Source: Helicobacter sp. (GTDB taxonomy: Bacteria; Campylobacterota; Campylobacteria; Campylobacterales; Helicobacteraceae). From it: 17,167 nucleotides of DNA. The stretch is from assembly GCA_029257755.1 (NCBI GenBank), contig JARIAP010000074.1, forward strand, positions 1 to 17,167. The letters are read 5' to 3'. The position numbers and the translations under genes were made by a program. Under the pieces are notes generated by a model. The model worked only from the letters and a program-made list of their open reading frames with translations, was not told where the DNA came from and ran no database searches. Of the stretch, positions 10,031 through 16,738 are shown in pieces (within the stretch, counting starts at the first letter, position 1; each line of letters opens with the position of its first letter).

Positions 10031-10711
10031 ATGAATACTTTTTATTGTTTGGATAATTCTAAGTTACAGATAGATTTTGTAACTCCCATAGATTTATATG
10101 AAGTAAAGGGTTCTAAGTTTCTTTGTTATTTATTTCCTATTCCACTTTCAAGCGATATTTATAAGGCTAAAGTTAATTTAGATTCTAACAATTATTGCAA
10201 TTTATTATTTAATATACATAAAAACTTTATATTAGAGCAATTGCGTAGAAATCACAAAAAGGCTGTTCATTTTGTGTTAGCATTTAGAATCTTTAATGAA
10301 TATGATCATATAATTGAAGGTAGCAGTGATGATGGAGAACCAAAAGGAAGTTCTGGTATTCCTATGTTAGAAGTAATGCGTGGTGAAAAACTAATTAACT
10401 CTTTATGTGTTTGTGTTAGATATTTTGGTGGAACTAAGCTTGGTGTTGGCGGTTTAGTTAGGGCTTATACTCAATCTAGTTTAAATGCTATTTTAAAGTT
10501 AAAAGATCTTGACTTACTTAAACTATATAAAAAAACAATAGTAATTGATATAAAAGAAAGAAATTCAAATTATAATAGAATAATATATTTAGTTCAAAAA
10601 TACAATCTAAACATTATAAGTAAAAGTTTTTTGCAATCCTATATTGATTTAAAAATACAAGGAGAAGAAGATAATATAAATAAATTTTTAGAATCTTATA
10701 ATAATAATTAA
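10031..10711 (+). CDS. YigZ/IMPACT family protein (UPF0029)
   Basis: The 226-residue protein belongs to the YigZ/IMPACT family by two clear motifs: SDDGEPKGSSGIP at residues 99-111 and RYFGGTKLGVGGLVRAY at 130-146. Eukaryotic IMPACT regulates the translational stress kinase GCN2. Bacterial YigZ proteins are small two-domain proteins of uncertain function, thought to bind nucleic acid. The N-terminal domain is followed by a shorter, poorly conserved alpha/beta C-terminal domain (about 165-226), as expected. The start is ATG 10031, nine bases after the preceding stop, with no good Shine-Dalgarno sequence. Translation may rely on coupling to the upstream gene. Confidence 0.87.
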   Translation: MNTFYCLDNSKLQIDFVTPIDLYEVKGSKFLCYLFPIPLSSDIYKAKVNLDSNNYCNLLFNIHKNFILEQLRRNHKKAVHFVLAFRIFNEYDHIIEGSSDDGEPKGSSGIPMLEVMRGEKLINSLCVCVRYFGGTKLGVGGLVRAYTQSSLNAILKLKDLDLLKLYKKTIVIDIKERNSNYNRIIYLVQKYNLNIISKSFLQSYIDLKIQGEEDNINKFLESYNNN

Positions 10712-11580: not shown

Positions 11581-12351
11581 TTATTTGTTTTTTAATCTTT
11601 CGTATTTATTTATTTCATTTGATAATTTATTTGCTTCTTCTTGATTACCTTCTTTATTTAACAATATAATATATAGCTTATATATATCAATTTCATTTGG
11701 ATTAATATCTTGTGCTAATGCTAACCATTTTCTAGCCTCTTCAATATCATCTTTTTTTAATGCAGATTCTATAATTTTTATTATATTTTTTATTTCTATT
11801 GTGCCATGTATATTTGGTATATTATAACTCTTTATTTTTGGTATTTTTAATGATATTGTTTTTGCATTATTTATAGAATCTTTTATATGAGTATTATTAG
11901 GTATTTGATTGTTTTTGTTTCTTAGTGTATCTATTGGTAAATATCCACGCAATAATATTTCATCATTCATTATTGTTATTATAACCCATTTACCCATAAT
12001 ATCTTTTAATGTAATTTGTAGGTTTGAGTTTAAAATATCTTGAGGGAAGTTTAAGCATATTTTTTGCCCTTTTTTAATTTGAAAAATTGTTTTACTATTA
12101 TTAGAATCCCTTTGTTTAATATTTGCTTGTTTTGTTATTAATGTATAGCATTCAAAGCTAGATTTTATTATAGTAGGAATATTAAATTCAATATTATTTG
12201 TAGTATCTTGTTGTATATTATTTATTTTATTTTCTTCTTTATTATTATTTTCTTTATATTCCATTTTATCATATTTCATATATATAGAAATGCTAATAAC
12301 ACAAATACAAATAATTATTAATATACGCATATAATAATCATAATGTTTCAT
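11581..12351 (-). CDS. Membrane-anchored protein with SH3-like region and TPR-like C-terminus, function unknown
   Basis: I do not recognise a named family. The 256-residue protein begins with a short basic segment and one hydrophobic helix (about residues 9-24) without a clear cleavage site, so it is probably an inner-membrane anchor with a periplasmic body. A low-complexity Asn/Glu/Lys linker follows (30-57). Residues 68-143 look like a bacterial SH3-like domain: CYTLITKQANIKQRDSNNSK, then an IKKGQKICL strand, a KWVIITI strand and a final GYLPIDTL. Such domains often bind peptidoglycan. Residues 185-250 fit one or two TPR helices (KKDDIEEARKWLALAQDINPNEID as two adjacent pieces, then NKEGNQEEANKLS), suggesting protein contacts. 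The start ATG at 12351 has AAGGA upstream at rather long spacing (11 bases). It is divergent from gatB and convergent with the NYN gene. A role in the cell wall is only an inference. Confidence 0.72.
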   Translation of the reverse strand: MKHYDYYMRILIIICICVISISIYMKYDKMEYKENNNKEENKINNIQQDTTNNIEFNIPTIIKSSFECYTLITKQANIKQRDSNNSKTIFQIKKGQKICLNFPQDILNSNLQITLKDIMGKWVIITIMNDEILLRGYLPIDTLRNKNNQIPNNTHIKDSINNAKTISLKIPKIKSYNIPNIHGTIEIKNIIKIIESALKKDDIEEARKWLALAQDINPNEIDIYKLYIILLNKEGNQEEANKLSNEINKYERLKNK

Positions 12352-12447: not shown

Positions 12448-12452
12448 AAGGA
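12448..12452 (+). promoter_or_regulatory. Ribosome-binding site that decides the gatB start
   Basis: AAGGA ends on the A of the upstream in-frame ATG (12452), so that codon cannot use it. The next in-frame ATG at 12458 lies five bases downstream, which is normal spacing, and gives the expected [14 protein letters not shown]-terminus. Confidence 0.75.
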
Positions 12453-12457
12453 TGATT

Positions 12458-13888
12458 ATGAGCAATTTTGAAACTATTATTGGACTAGAAGTCCATGTTC
12501 AACTTAATACAAAAACAAAAATATTTTGTTCTTGTGCTACTAGTTTTGGAGAAGAACCAAATATGAATGTCTGCCCTGTTTGTTTAGGTTTGCCCGGTGC
12601 TCTTCCTGTGTTGAATAAAGAAGCTGTATCAAAGGCTATATCATTTGGCACTGCGATAGGTGCACAAATTAATCAAAACTCCATATTTGCAAGAAAAAAT
12701 TATTTTTATCCAGATTTACCAAAAGCTTATCAAATTAGTCAATTTGAAGTTCCTATAGTAGGTAAAGGTAAAATAGAAATAAATATAGATGGTATAAAAA
12801 AAGATATAGGTATAACAAGGGCACATCTTGAAGAAGATGCAGGTAAAAATATACATGAGGGCGATTGTTCAAAAATTGACTTAAATAGGGCTTGCACACC
12901 ATTGCTTGAAATTGTTAGTGAGCCTGATATGAGAAGTAGCACAGAAGCAATAGCATATCTTAAAAAACTTCATTCAATTGTAAAGTTTTTAGAAATAAGC
13001 GATGCTAATATGCAAGAGGGTAGTTTTAGATGTGATGCAAATGTATCAATTAGACCAAAGGGCGAAAATAGATTCTATACTCGCGTTGAAATTAAGAATC
13101 TAAATAGTTTTAAATTTATTCAAAAAGCTATAGAATATGAAGTTCAAAGACAACAAAATGCTTTTGAAAATGGCACTTATGATGATGAGGTATATCAAGA
13201 AACAAGATTATTTGATACTGATAAAGGTATTACAAAGTCAATGAGAGGCAAAGAAGAAAGTGCTGATTATAGATATTTTAATGATCCAGATTTATTGCCT
13301 GTGTTTTTAGATGATGAATTACTAGCAAAAGCTAGGAATATACCTGAAATGCCAGATATTAAAGTTAAACGATATATAGAATCTTTTGGTATTAAAGAAA
13401 ATGATGCAAGAGTTTTAACACAAGATTTAGACTTAACGAAATATTTTGAATATTTAGTAGATAATGGCATTTCCCCTAAGGGTGCATACACTTGGTTAAG
13501 TGTAGAATTACAAGGTAGATTAAAGAATGGAAACACTATTGCAACTTGTGGAATTACTAAGCAAACCCTTGCTACTCTTGTAAAAAGAATAGAAGAAAAA
13601 AAGATTAGTGGTGCAGGTGGAAAAGAAATACTTGATATTTTAGTAGATAAAAAAGGTGGTGATGTTGATTTATTGATTAAAGATTTAGGCTTAGAGCAAA
13701 TAAATGATGATAATGCTATTATTAGTATGATTGATACTATTTTAAGCAATAATGAAGATAAGGTTGCGGAATACAAGGCGGGTAAAGAGAAAATGTTAGG
13801 ATTTTTTGTAGGGCAGGTTATGAAACAAGCAAAAGGCATGAATCCAGCAAGAGTAAATGAGCTATTAAGACAAAAATTAAATTCATAA
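12458..13888 (+). CDS. gatB: Aspartyl/glutamyl-tRNA(Asn/Gln) amidotransferase subunit B
   Basis: GatB is the tRNA-binding and kinase-like subunit of GatCAB. This complex activates Glu-tRNA(Gln) or Asp-tRNA(Asn) and amidates it with ammonia passed from GatA. The protein (476 residues from ATG 12458) has normal length. It opens with [20 protein letters not shown], then has a CxC...CxxC set (KIFCSC and CPVCLGLPG) that probably binds zinc, and [19 protein letters not shown]. The next blocks are [13 protein letters not shown] and [15 protein letters not shown], then [13 protein letters not shown] and [21 protein letters not shown]. The C-terminal third is the YqeY-like tRNA-binding domain, ending in [14 protein letters not shown]. 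GatA and GatC are not in the window. Organisms of this group usually lack GlnRS or AsnRS and need this enzyme. The MetE-like gene follows after 19 bp, so the two are probably co-transcribed. Confidence 0.97.
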
Positions 13889-13894
13889 TTAATT

Positions 13895-13899
13895 AGGAG
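13895..13899 (+). promoter_or_regulatory. Ribosome-binding site supporting a TTG start of the MetE-like gene
   Basis: AGGAG lies eight bases upstream of TTG 13908. This is the only good signal near the N-terminus, and the protein read from this TTG begins at the same place as MetE (GFPSIG by residue 5), so TTG is accepted as the start. A kept ribosome-binding site argues that the gene is translated. Confidence 0.7.
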
Positions 13900-13907
13900 T
13901 TATTAAT

Positions 13908-15662
13908 TTGAGTATAATTGGATTTCCTAGCATTGGATTAAACTTAGAGTTAAAACATTTAATTGAATCTTATTGCATAGGAAAAATATCTAAAAATGAA
14001 TTTTTAGTAGAAATTGTTAAGTTTAGAGAGGCAAATTGGAAATATCAAGATAATTTTTATTTCACAACAATTAATGACTTTAGCCTATATGACAATATGC
14101 TTGATTTAAGTATCATGTTAGGGATTATCCCAAAAGAATATAGAGACATGGAGTGGCTTAGTCAATATTTTGCTATGGCTAAAGGTGAAGATAGCTTTGA
14201 GTTTGATTCTACTAGCAAATGGTTTGATACAAAATACTATTTTGTAGTGCCAAAATTAAGTGAAGATGATACCTACAAAATAAATCCTATAAAAATTATA
14301 GAAGAGTATTCACATGCAAGGAAATTAGGTTATATTCCAAAAATTAGTTTAATTGGATTCTTTACATATTTTTCTCTTGCAAGAACTAAAGCAAATATTG
14401 ATAAATCAATATTCTTTGATAATGTTAAAGATGCTTATTTGAGATTAATAGAATCTTTAAGCACACTTGATAAAATAATATATATTGAATTTAGTGAGCC
14501 AATATTTACACAAAATGAAGATTTAGATTCTAAAGTTATAAAAGATTTTTATAATCAAATAGCAGATTATGGGATTAATGCTATTGTAACTACATTTTTT
14601 GGTGCAAGTAACAAAACAACAAAAATTTTATGCGATACTAGGATTTATGGTATAGGCTTAGATTTTGTAAGTGGTGAAGAAAATTTACATAGTTTGCAAG
14701 ATATTGCAAATAGTGGTAAGAAATTATATGCAGGTGTAGTTGATGGGCTTAGTGTATATGCTATGGATATAGATTCTGTATTATTGCTATTAGATAAAAT
14801 AAGCTTTATTGTGCCAAAAGACTTGATTAATTTAAGCCCATCATGCTCATTTTTACATATACCATATACAATAGAAAATGAGAATCCTAATGATTTAGTA
14901 ATATCAAATTATTTTAGTTTTGCAAAGGAAAAAATAGAAGAATTAGAATTATTAGAATCTGTATTTAAATATAGTGTAACAGATAATAATAGAAAAAAAT
15001 ATGAAGCACAGAGACAAAAATTTATACGATATAAACAATCATTATCCATTAATGATTATTTTATGAGATACGAATTATCTAATTTTCATACACAAAATGC
15101 ACGAGAATTTATAGATAATTTTCTTATACATACAAATATGAAAACACATGATAAAATATCTAAATATTCACAAGAAATATTTGATTTAGTTTATAAATAT
15201 AATTATAGTGAATTTGATATAAAATCTTATATAAGCAATCTTGAAACCTTAATAAGTCAATACATACAAACATTAGATAAAAATATAGAAACTATTTCTA
15301 TATGTCAAGATTTTTGTTATACTCAAATGGTAGAGTATATTAGTATGCAATTAAATGGAATTTTTGTTACTAAGAATGGGTATATACAAACTAAAGGCAC
15401 AGAATGTATAAAGCCAATTATTATATATGGTGATATTAGTATGAAAAATATGGAATTATTAATATCATTCATTACAATACAATCTATATCAAATAAAGCT
15501 TGTAAGGTAATATTGCCAAGTCAAGATGGATTAATAAATATAGCATTCTCAAGAAATGATATTGCTATTAATGAAATATATAACCAACTCACATTAGTTT
15601 TATGTCAAGTTATAGAAGAATGTCAAAATCACTCAATGAGTATAGAAATATATTCACACTAG
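13908..15662 (+). CDS. MetE-like protein: degenerate, C-terminally truncated cobalamin-independent methionine synthase homologue
   Basis: The first two thirds align by eye with the N-terminal domain of MetE: GFPSIGLNLELK at residues 5-16 (MetE GFPRxGxxRELK), ANWKYQ 42-47, NDFSLYDNMLDLSIMLGIIP 56-75, YFAMAKG 87-93, SKWFDTKYYFVVPKL 103-117, SPSCSFLHIP 310-319 and FAKEKIEEL 338-346. Residues 473-505 match the MetE stretch RNDMVEYFGExLxGFxFTxNGWVQSYGSRCVKPP, and IYGDIS (506-511) the GDVSRP that follows. Yet the catalytic barrel is damaged. The TTTIGSFPQT loop is unrecognisable, VLVHGE reads SICQDF, and SRC reads TEC. The WSFxRxD tryptophan is Ala (IAFSRND), and the protein stops before IQIDEPA. 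It is 584 residues instead of about 750 and lacks all four zinc ligands (His, Cys, Glu, Cys). Methionine synthesis by the known mechanism is therefore excluded. The frame has no internal stop, and a TTG start with AGGAG is kept. It is either a decaying gene or a re-purposed protein. Confidence 0.85.
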   Translation: MSIIGFPSIGLNLELKHLIESYCIGKISKNEFLVEIVKFREANWKYQDNFYFTTINDFSLYDNMLDLSIMLGIIPKEYRDMEWLSQYFAMAKGEDSFEFDSTSKWFDTKYYFVVPKLSEDDTYKINPIKIIEEYSHARKLGYIPKISLIGFFTYFSLARTKANIDKSIFFDNVKDAYLRLIESLSTLDKIIYIEFSEPIFTQNEDLDSKVIKDFYNQIADYGINAIVTTFFGASNKTTKILCDTRIYGIGLDFVSGEENLHSLQDIANSGKKLYAGVVDGLSVYAMDIDSVLLLLDKISFIVPKDLINLSPSCSFLHIPYTIENENPNDLVISNYFSFAKEKIEELELLESVFKYSVTDNNRKKYEAQRQKFIRYKQSLSINDYFMRYELSNFHTQNAREFIDNFLIHTNMKTHDKISKYSQEIFDLVYKYNYSEFDIKSYISNLETLISQYIQTLDKNIETISICQDFCYTQMVEYISMQLNGIFVTKNGYIQTKGTECIKPIIIYGDISMKNMELLISFITIQSISNKACKVILPSQDGLINIAFSRNDIAINEIYNQLTLVLCQVIEECQNHSMSIEIYSH

Positions 15663-15706: not shown

Positions 15707-16738
15707 TTAAAAATCTCTTAGTCTTAAACCTAAACCTATTCTATTTACAGGCAAACTATACTCATATAAACTATCACCATAACCATATAAATATTGTATA
15801 TAAATTGCATAATGTTTTGTAATACCATAGCTATATCCTAATTCAATATGCCCTTTCCAATCCCAATATTCTTTAGTAAAATAATTATTTATAATATTAT
15901 TTAGATACAATTCAAATAAATTGTCTTTATATTTATAAGATAATTTTATATCGCCATAGCCACTATATTTTCCTATATCCCCATTTGTTTTTGCACCATC
16001 AAATGCTATTATTGACATATTAGCCCATGTCCTAAATCTAGCATTAAAATCTTTATATCTATAATTTGTTTCAAATACTAATCTATCAAATGCCTTGCTA
16101 CGCACAAAATTATTATTATATTGTGCTTGTCTAGGATCATTCATATTCTTATATTCACTCTCACCATTACTTGTATGTTTATATCCAATAGAAAACCAAT
16201 TAAAATATCCACCATCACCATTAAATATAGGTATTGGCTTTTTATATACAAAACTTATTGATGGTGATAAATCAAAATCTCTAAGCGGTGAGCTATATTT
16301 ATCATTATATGTTTGTAAATATATTCTTTGTGTATAATCAAAGCTAAAAGAGCAAAATTTACAGATAATATCATTTAATATATCAAATCTAAAGCTTATT
16401 TGAGACTTTATCTCTGTTTGCATAATTCTATTATCATACATTTTACTAAAACTATAATATGTAGGCAGGACATACCAAGGCTCACTTATTTTAAATATAG
16501 AAAAGAATGATTTATTAAACAATGTATTTGAAGTAATTTTAGGTTCTTTTATTTTACTATATTCATCATTGATTTTATTTTGTATTTCATCGTTTTTTCT
16601 ATCAATCTCATTTGTATTTAAAACTTTTGAATCTATTTTTTCATTATTAATAATAGTGTTATTTATATTATCTTTTGTGATTTCTTGCGAAAAAGCATAA
16701 CAAATGCTAATGATAAGAATAATAAAAATTTTCACCAA
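15707..16738 (-). CDS. pldA: Outer-membrane phospholipase A (OMPLA), PldA-like
   Basis: OMPLA is a calcium-dependent outer-membrane beta-barrel enzyme that cleaves acyl chains of phospholipids misplaced in the outer leaflet. The 343-residue protein has a signal peptide (about residues 1-17, cut near AFS-QE), a hydrophilic Asn/Lys/Asp-rich segment (20-68), and then the barrel domain: SEPWYVLPTYY, GYKHTSNGE with His188 and Ser190 of the active site, GYGDSLYEY near 319-327 and a terminal Phe as usual for outer-membrane barrels. The third triad residue, Asn in E. coli (SWNRLY), reads Asp218 here (AFDRLV). About 16 extra residues lie between Ser190 and this site compared with E. coli. The start is TTG 16738 or GTG 16735; GGGGA at 16743-16747 on the minus strand has better spacing (seven bases) to the GTG. 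It is convergent with the MetE-like gene, 44 bp apart. Confidence 0.9.
   Translation of the reverse strand: MVKIFIILIISICYAFSQEITKDNINNTIINNEKIDSKVLNTNEIDRKNDEIQNKINDEYSKIKEPKITSNTLFNKSFFSIFKISEPWYVLPTYYSFSKMYDNRIMQTEIKSQISFRFDILNDIICKFCSFSFDYTQRIYLQTYNDKYSSPLRDFDLSPSISFVYKKPIPIFNGDGGYFNWFSIGYKHTSNGESEYKNMNDPRQAQYNNNFVRSKAFDRLVFETNYRYKDFNARFRTWANMSIIAFDGAKTNGDIGKYSGYGDIKLSYKYKDNLFELYLNNIINNYFTKEYWDWKGHIELGYSYGITKHYAIYIQYLYGYGDSLYEYSLPVNRIGLGLRLRDF

Follow-up and report, generated by a model that had tools for sequence, protein, structure and literature searches.

An apparently selected, catalytically dead MetE relative beside gatB in two Helicobacter genomes

Behind gatB on a contig of Helicobacter sp. 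(assembly GCA_029257755.1, contig JARIAP010000074.1) lies a gene that resembles the methionine synthase MetE and stops before the residues of the zinc site. The contig, 17,167 nucleotides long, was analysed in full and is called the window below. The question raised by this locus is whether such a frame is a failing enzyme gene or a shortened protein that is kept for a role of its own. The original prediction, made from the letters of the window, allowed for both readings: selection for another role, for example binding of folate or a metabolite by the N-terminal domain, or very recent decay.

A frame that ends within the catalytic barrel

The frame is real. Its open reading frame and Pfam matches agree with the original description of a 584-codon MetE homologue that has the N-terminal blocks and the first half of the catalytic domain (Table 1). 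Meth_synt_1 (PF08267) is matched over residues 2-299 with 235.5 bits against a gathering cut-off of 27, covering profile positions 3-309 of 313, and the catalytic-domain profile is matched with 54.9 bits at positions 60-164 of 324 only. Both Pfam cut-offs are passed, and residues 2 to about 578 match the solved MetE of S. mutans in sequence. PMC539065 describes MetE as a double barrel, in which the N-terminal barrel duplicates the catalytic one and has its own sites obliterated, and places QIDEPA, conserved in MetE, in the beta4-alpha4A segment of each barrel. Because the window protein stops at this place, it consists of one whole barrel, a linker and half of a second barrel. The barrel boundaries were taken from the alignment and from PMC539065.

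Table 1. Features of the window, with identities between the window copy and its counterpart in the second genome (G005)
Feature	Position	Strand	Evidence and remarks
YigZ/IMPACT-like protein	10031..10711	+	below both NCBIfam cut-offs (137.6 vs 167.95; 74 vs 298)
256-aa gene, the other neighbour of gatB	11581..12351	-	place also kept in G005, 45% identity
gatB, neighbour kept in both genomes	12452..13888	+	88.9% identical in G005, same order; 19 bases from stop to TTG
AGGAG, ribosome-binding-site-like	13895..13899	+	eight bases 5' of TTG; read from sequence
Truncated MetE-like gene, 584 aa	13908..15662	+	TTG start, TAG stop; ORF; orthologue in G005
N-terminal barrel, residues 1-355	13908..14972	+	PF08267; fold model; 62% identity
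Inter-barrel linker region, residues 356-409	14973..15134	+	37% identity; boundary from alignment with full-length MetE
Half of catalytic barrel, residues 410-584, then stop	15135..15659	+	four predicted barrel strands; 38% identity
Best kept half-barrel piece, residues 480-511, with predicted beta hairpin	15345..15440	+	69% identity
Phospholipase A1 family protein, after the truncated gene	15707..16738	-	PF02253, 132 bits

An orthologue with the same truncation beside gatB, which the original prediction proposed to seek in relatives, was found in a second genome of the genus. The window's genome (G000) consists of 199 contigs and is 67% complete; the second genome (G005) is 87% complete. Its orthologue (L003:1501-3252, 583 aa) lies after gatB inside a 53.7 kb contig, has the same end point and is 53% identical to the window copy. 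The proteins end in IEIYSH (G000) and IDIYSC (G005), and three one-codon gaps and zero frameshifts separate them. The ribosome-binding site said to be kept is readily seen in the window; in G005, where the gene starts with ATG, AGGAG is less clear.

The surroundings of the locus also offer some observations. The 256-aa gene has no match in Pfam or NCBIfam at E 0.01, and relatives, counting the gene itself, occur in 9 of the 14 genomes of the genus, with an in-frame TGA in G010 and a fragment with two stops in G012. In G005, the frames that follow the truncated gene (234 aa and 176 aa) differ from those in the window.

Alignment with full-length MetE shows that the losses listed in the original prediction are real. 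In the window copy the TTTIGSFPQT block is gone, VLVHGE has become SICQDF, SRC has become TEC and WSF has become IAF, and the frame terminates at the I-Q-V-D-E-A position (the IQIDEPA block of the original prediction). The part of the protein that bears the four zinc ligands (His, Cys, Glu, Cys) is missing from both copies; the Cys that G005 shows in the column of the last zinc Cys is the protein's final residue, pulled over by the aligner, and not a ligand. Nine motifs, all found in each of four full-length MetEs checked, are likewise missing from both truncated copies. Six catalytic-barrel positions that serve homocysteine or folate, assigned in part after PMC539065, were tested, and five of them are changed or absent in both copies. 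Specifically, the Ser of TIGS, the Glu of VHGE (Asp in the window copy), the Arg of SRC and the Trp of NWSF are replaced, and the Asp of VDEA is absent; the sixth, the Cys of SRC, is retained in the window copy but replaced by Tyr in G005. The truncated protein also fails the NCBIfam cut-offs of TIGR01371 (348.6 vs 541) and NF003556 (313.6 vs 929.95), both of which the genome's own full MetE exceeds (1011.3 and 973.6). Judged by its residues, with the zinc part absent and the substrate residues changed, the protein cannot be a methionine synthase of the known type, as originally concluded, and having no zinc site it should not activate homocysteine.

The AlphaFold model of the window copy has a mean pLDDT of 79.3 and a pTM of 0.80. 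Its N-barrel lies mostly at pLDDT 77-97 per ten residues, with lower values at 1-10, 91-110 and 311-340. The half-barrel, at 47-84 per ten residues, has predicted barrel strands at 414-416, 462-465, 531-537 and 578-582, the last four residues of the protein being at 48. Strands of a hairpin region are predicted at 482-487, 493-496, 499-501 and 504-512; the best kept piece of the half-barrel overlaps this long hairpin, whose counterpart in MetE packs against the N-barrel according to PMC539065. The first 29 PDB fold matches of the model are all MetE, and the half-barrel shape may come from the full-length MetEs that make up 26 of the 28 rows of the predictor's alignment. The truncated protein thus has the N-barrel, linker, first catalytic half-barrel and fold match in common with MetE (TIGR01371, NF003556; structures 1xdj, 1u1h, 3ppf), but differs from it in ending near catalytic strand 4, without zinc ligands, with replaced substrate residues and below the NCBIfam cut-offs.

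Selection on the truncated gene

Between the two genomes, identity is 89% for gatB, 79% for the full MetE and 53% for the truncated one. The dN/dS ratio, whose calculation had been recommended, is far below 1: a pairwise codon model gives an omega of 0.063 for the whole truncated gene, and fixing omega at 1 is worse by 100.1 log units overall, by 74.8 for residues 1-355 and by 17.2 for residues 421-584. Because the dS values are saturated (full MetE 2.4, gatB 2.9, truncated gene 5.6), omega is rough and only "far below one" is trustworthy.

The constraint is distributed unevenly along the protein. Conserved columns were defined as those kept in at least 95% of 26 full-length MetEs (alignment A1, which holds 26 besides the pair), and of such columns the N-barrel retains 84 of 135 in both copies, the linker 1 of 10 and the half-barrel 22 of 114. 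At conserved columns the copies have 39 replacements in common, 13 of them in the N-barrel and 24 in the half-barrel. Half-barrel divergence at codon positions 1, 2 and 3 is 0.38, 0.35 and 0.42, and constraint on this part is weak, since position 3 has diverged little more than positions 1 and 2.

The original argument that so long an open frame is improbable by chance is borne out by simulation. A gene of the same length and composition was allowed to change neutrally, the base composition at third positions being that of gatB. Six branch lengths between 0.1 and 1.2 were simulated, and at each of them none of 400 copies was free of stops. With 0.1 changes per site and branch, 11.4 stops per copy and 61% protein identity are expected; the real pair, with zero stops, stands below this at 53%. 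A loss of function could stay hidden only if it were very recent, as 5% of 200 copies were still open at 0.02 changes per site. Very recent decay finds no support here. Neutrality is rejected by the codon models, more strongly for the N-barrel than for the half-barrel, and the pattern of the sequences suggests that the shortened protein is still maintained by selection in the two genomes. Selection for another role, the other half of the original proposal, looks right in view of the orthologue with the same truncation and an omega far below 1; the selected protein probably has another job than methionine synthesis.

Distribution and origin of the truncated form

A full metE, to be sought elsewhere in the genome according to the original prediction, was found on another contig (G000:C51). 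The full MetEs of both genomes have 9 of 9 checked motifs. Among 14 genomes of the genus, only these two have the truncated form beside the full one; the other 12 have one match each, in a frame of 751-773 aa, and no metE-like frame flanks their gatB within about 1.5 kb on each side (less in G007). The full metE of G011 lies about 13 kb from gatB on the same contig. PF08267 is matched in 66 of 121 genomes of the family, and a near-complete N-domain in a frame of less than 700 aa occurs only in the same two.

Of 199 genomes sampled from the order, G005 not among them, 148 match a MetE profile at E 1e-20 or better. Among the matches listed, five N-terminal frames of less than 700 aa besides that of the window were seen (G267, G269, G182, G281, G261), all of which hit a contig end; the remaining short frames are C-terminal pieces and one decayed copy in G109. 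That copy (G109:C6:5107-6328), in a genome given as 100% complete, is broken by stops into short pieces and illustrates decay of metE in the family. One C-terminal piece, G194:C70:1472-2545 (profile positions 388-745, 373-aa frame), lies in the interior of a 5.2 kb contig and is either a split gene or a core-like form.

A whole-protein search of a database of 5.8 billion proteins gave at least 801 matches among 7995 candidates scored, and among the 120 matches listed there is no truncated relative beyond the pair, the other 118 being 715-789 aa long. A search with the N-domain only gave 36 matches, the best after the pair being 48% identical. Nine of the other 34 were examined (P0122-P0127, P0130, P0135, P0136); these shortened MetEs also have the N-domain without a full catalytic domain, but by eye they carry ordinary RELK and KWFN motifs, and none has the Leu for the Arg of RELK that is common to the window pair. 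They look like recent breaks or partial records. One case, P0124/P0122, concerns a shortened MetE N-domain that is recorded as Brachyspira aalborgi and nearly identical lengthwise to a longer protein; by eye it closely resembles a Helicobacter-type MetE. A genome_contigs scan with the window protein returned one distant Bacillus match only, from a set in which relatives of the window genome are possibly missing. In the open-licence PMC literature searched, titles and abstract openings contain no dead or half-barrel MetE.

The genus has two types of full MetE, one in 8 of 14 genomes and the other in 6 (G001, G003, G006, G009, G011, G012). G012 goes with the first group by gatB (82% identity to the window), yet its MetE is of the second type and may be a replacement by transfer. 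A first quick tree (28 of the 120 listed matches and 33 locus rows; unrooted) placed the pair on a branch of 4.13 and flagged the letter composition of both truncated copies. The analysis was repeated on the N-barrel alone with a more careful search, and this second tree, also unrooted, has 41 rows (10 listed database matches and 31 locus rows, with L029 and L032 dropped as long branches). In it the truncated pair forms a single clade (100/100) within a set of 12 rows (95/95), the other ten being second-type MetEs, among them those of G001, G003 and G009, which are identical or nearly so to the H. muridarum, H. didelphidarum and H. saguini records. The genomes' own full MetEs fall elsewhere, and a topology that unites them with the pair is rejected (p-AU 1.9e-06), which rules out a duplicate of the own metE. 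By gatB identity, G005 is closest to the window's genome, followed by genomes with the first MetE type. Grouping with the second type means that the truncated gene was either transferred from that type or is the remnant of an old double set; of these, transfer is the arrival that we would prefer over duplication and loss.

Possible roles of a MetE without its zinc site

The interpretation that best accounts for these results is that the truncated protein is a selected, catalytically dead pseudoenzyme derived from MetE, most likely acting by binding, and on the sequence evidence we regard this as probable. In the ancestor shared by the two genomes, a second-type MetE gene would have taken its place behind gatB and been cut short at about strand 4 of the catalytic barrel, presumably once, before the genomes split, and would then have been kept. 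Its product would consist of the N-terminal barrel, the linker and the half-barrel, whose best kept piece overlaps the hairpin. The N-barrel may bind a small molecule or another protein, with methionine synthesis left to the ordinary MetE. The overlap with the hairpin fits an arrangement in which the half-barrel serves as a cap and the N-barrel is the working part, which binds something. That the N-barrel has become a protein in its own right, with a new binding or even catalytic function, and that the half-barrel either caps it or pairs with that of a second copy into a rebuilt barrel that has a new site, is a more specific proposal and an improbable one.

As a special case of the pseudoenzyme, the truncated protein could be a subunit or regulator of the ordinary MetE, its N-barrel or half-barrel pairing with the full enzyme of the same cell and changing that enzyme's activity or stability. 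Both genomes with the truncated form have an intact-looking metE, and within the half-barrel conservation is highest in the hairpin region; against this, the truncated form comes from another MetE type than its would-be partner, and the two genes lie on different contigs. We regard this role as possible but rather improbable. Still less probable, and indeed unlikely, is a slowly decaying pseudogene whose function was lost before or after the species split and whose frame is not yet broken. Its fast change relative to gatB and the own full MetE, the weakly conserved linker and half-barrel, and the intact-looking metE that makes it dispensable for methionine synthesis would all suit such a gene, and a neutral copy could remain open at about 0.02 changes per site. 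However, an omega of 1 is rejected for the whole gene and both barrel regions, the pair is more diverged than the simulated copies at 0.1 changes per site, none of which was free of stops, and the decayed metE of G109 looks quite different.

Folate binding by the N-terminal domain, which the original prediction had offered as an example, fares worse and is very improbable. Both copies retain the lysines of RELK and CVKP, and at the lysine of TKWFN they have Lys or Arg. However, RELK has Leu in place of its Arg in both, SRC has Glu or Asn in place of its Arg, NWSF has Ile or Tyr in place of its Trp, and the part after the VDEA position is missing; matched by motif, these residues would correspond to the T. 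maritima folate contacts. Those contacts are given as Arg15, Lys18, Lys104, Arg493, Trp539 and Glu583 in PMC539065, which also judges "folate-binding domain" an inappropriate name for the N-barrel. An assembly or sequencing artefact, with a frameshift or misjoin cutting a normal metE, might be suspected from the fragmentation and incompleteness of the window's assembly, yet it is hardly conceivable and in practice refuted by the second genome, where the same truncation recurs at only 53% protein identity inside a 53.7 kb contig. Active-site motifs upstream of the stop are lost too. No C-terminal MetE remnant was found downstream in the window, and the corresponding stretch of G005 gave one chance-level match (E 7.5); in these two assemblies, 67% and 87% complete, the missing C-terminus occurs only within the full metE. 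A frame error with the lost C-terminus elsewhere, as the original prediction had envisaged, is therefore not borne out.

The core-MetE type keeps the catalytic zinc barrel and has no N-terminal domain. The truncated protein is its mirror image, with the N-terminal domain present and the zinc part absent; core-MetEs and related core methionine synthases (PMC7005905, PMC7857596) are likewise shortened members of the MetE superfamily. Since the truncated protein passes both Pfam cut-offs, annotation by domains only could mistake it for a methionine synthase. What the two genomes appear to hold is a selected dead MetE relative, the reverse of the known shortened forms. An N-barrel that is kept while the catalytic barrel is lost would show that the N-barrel can carry a function alone.
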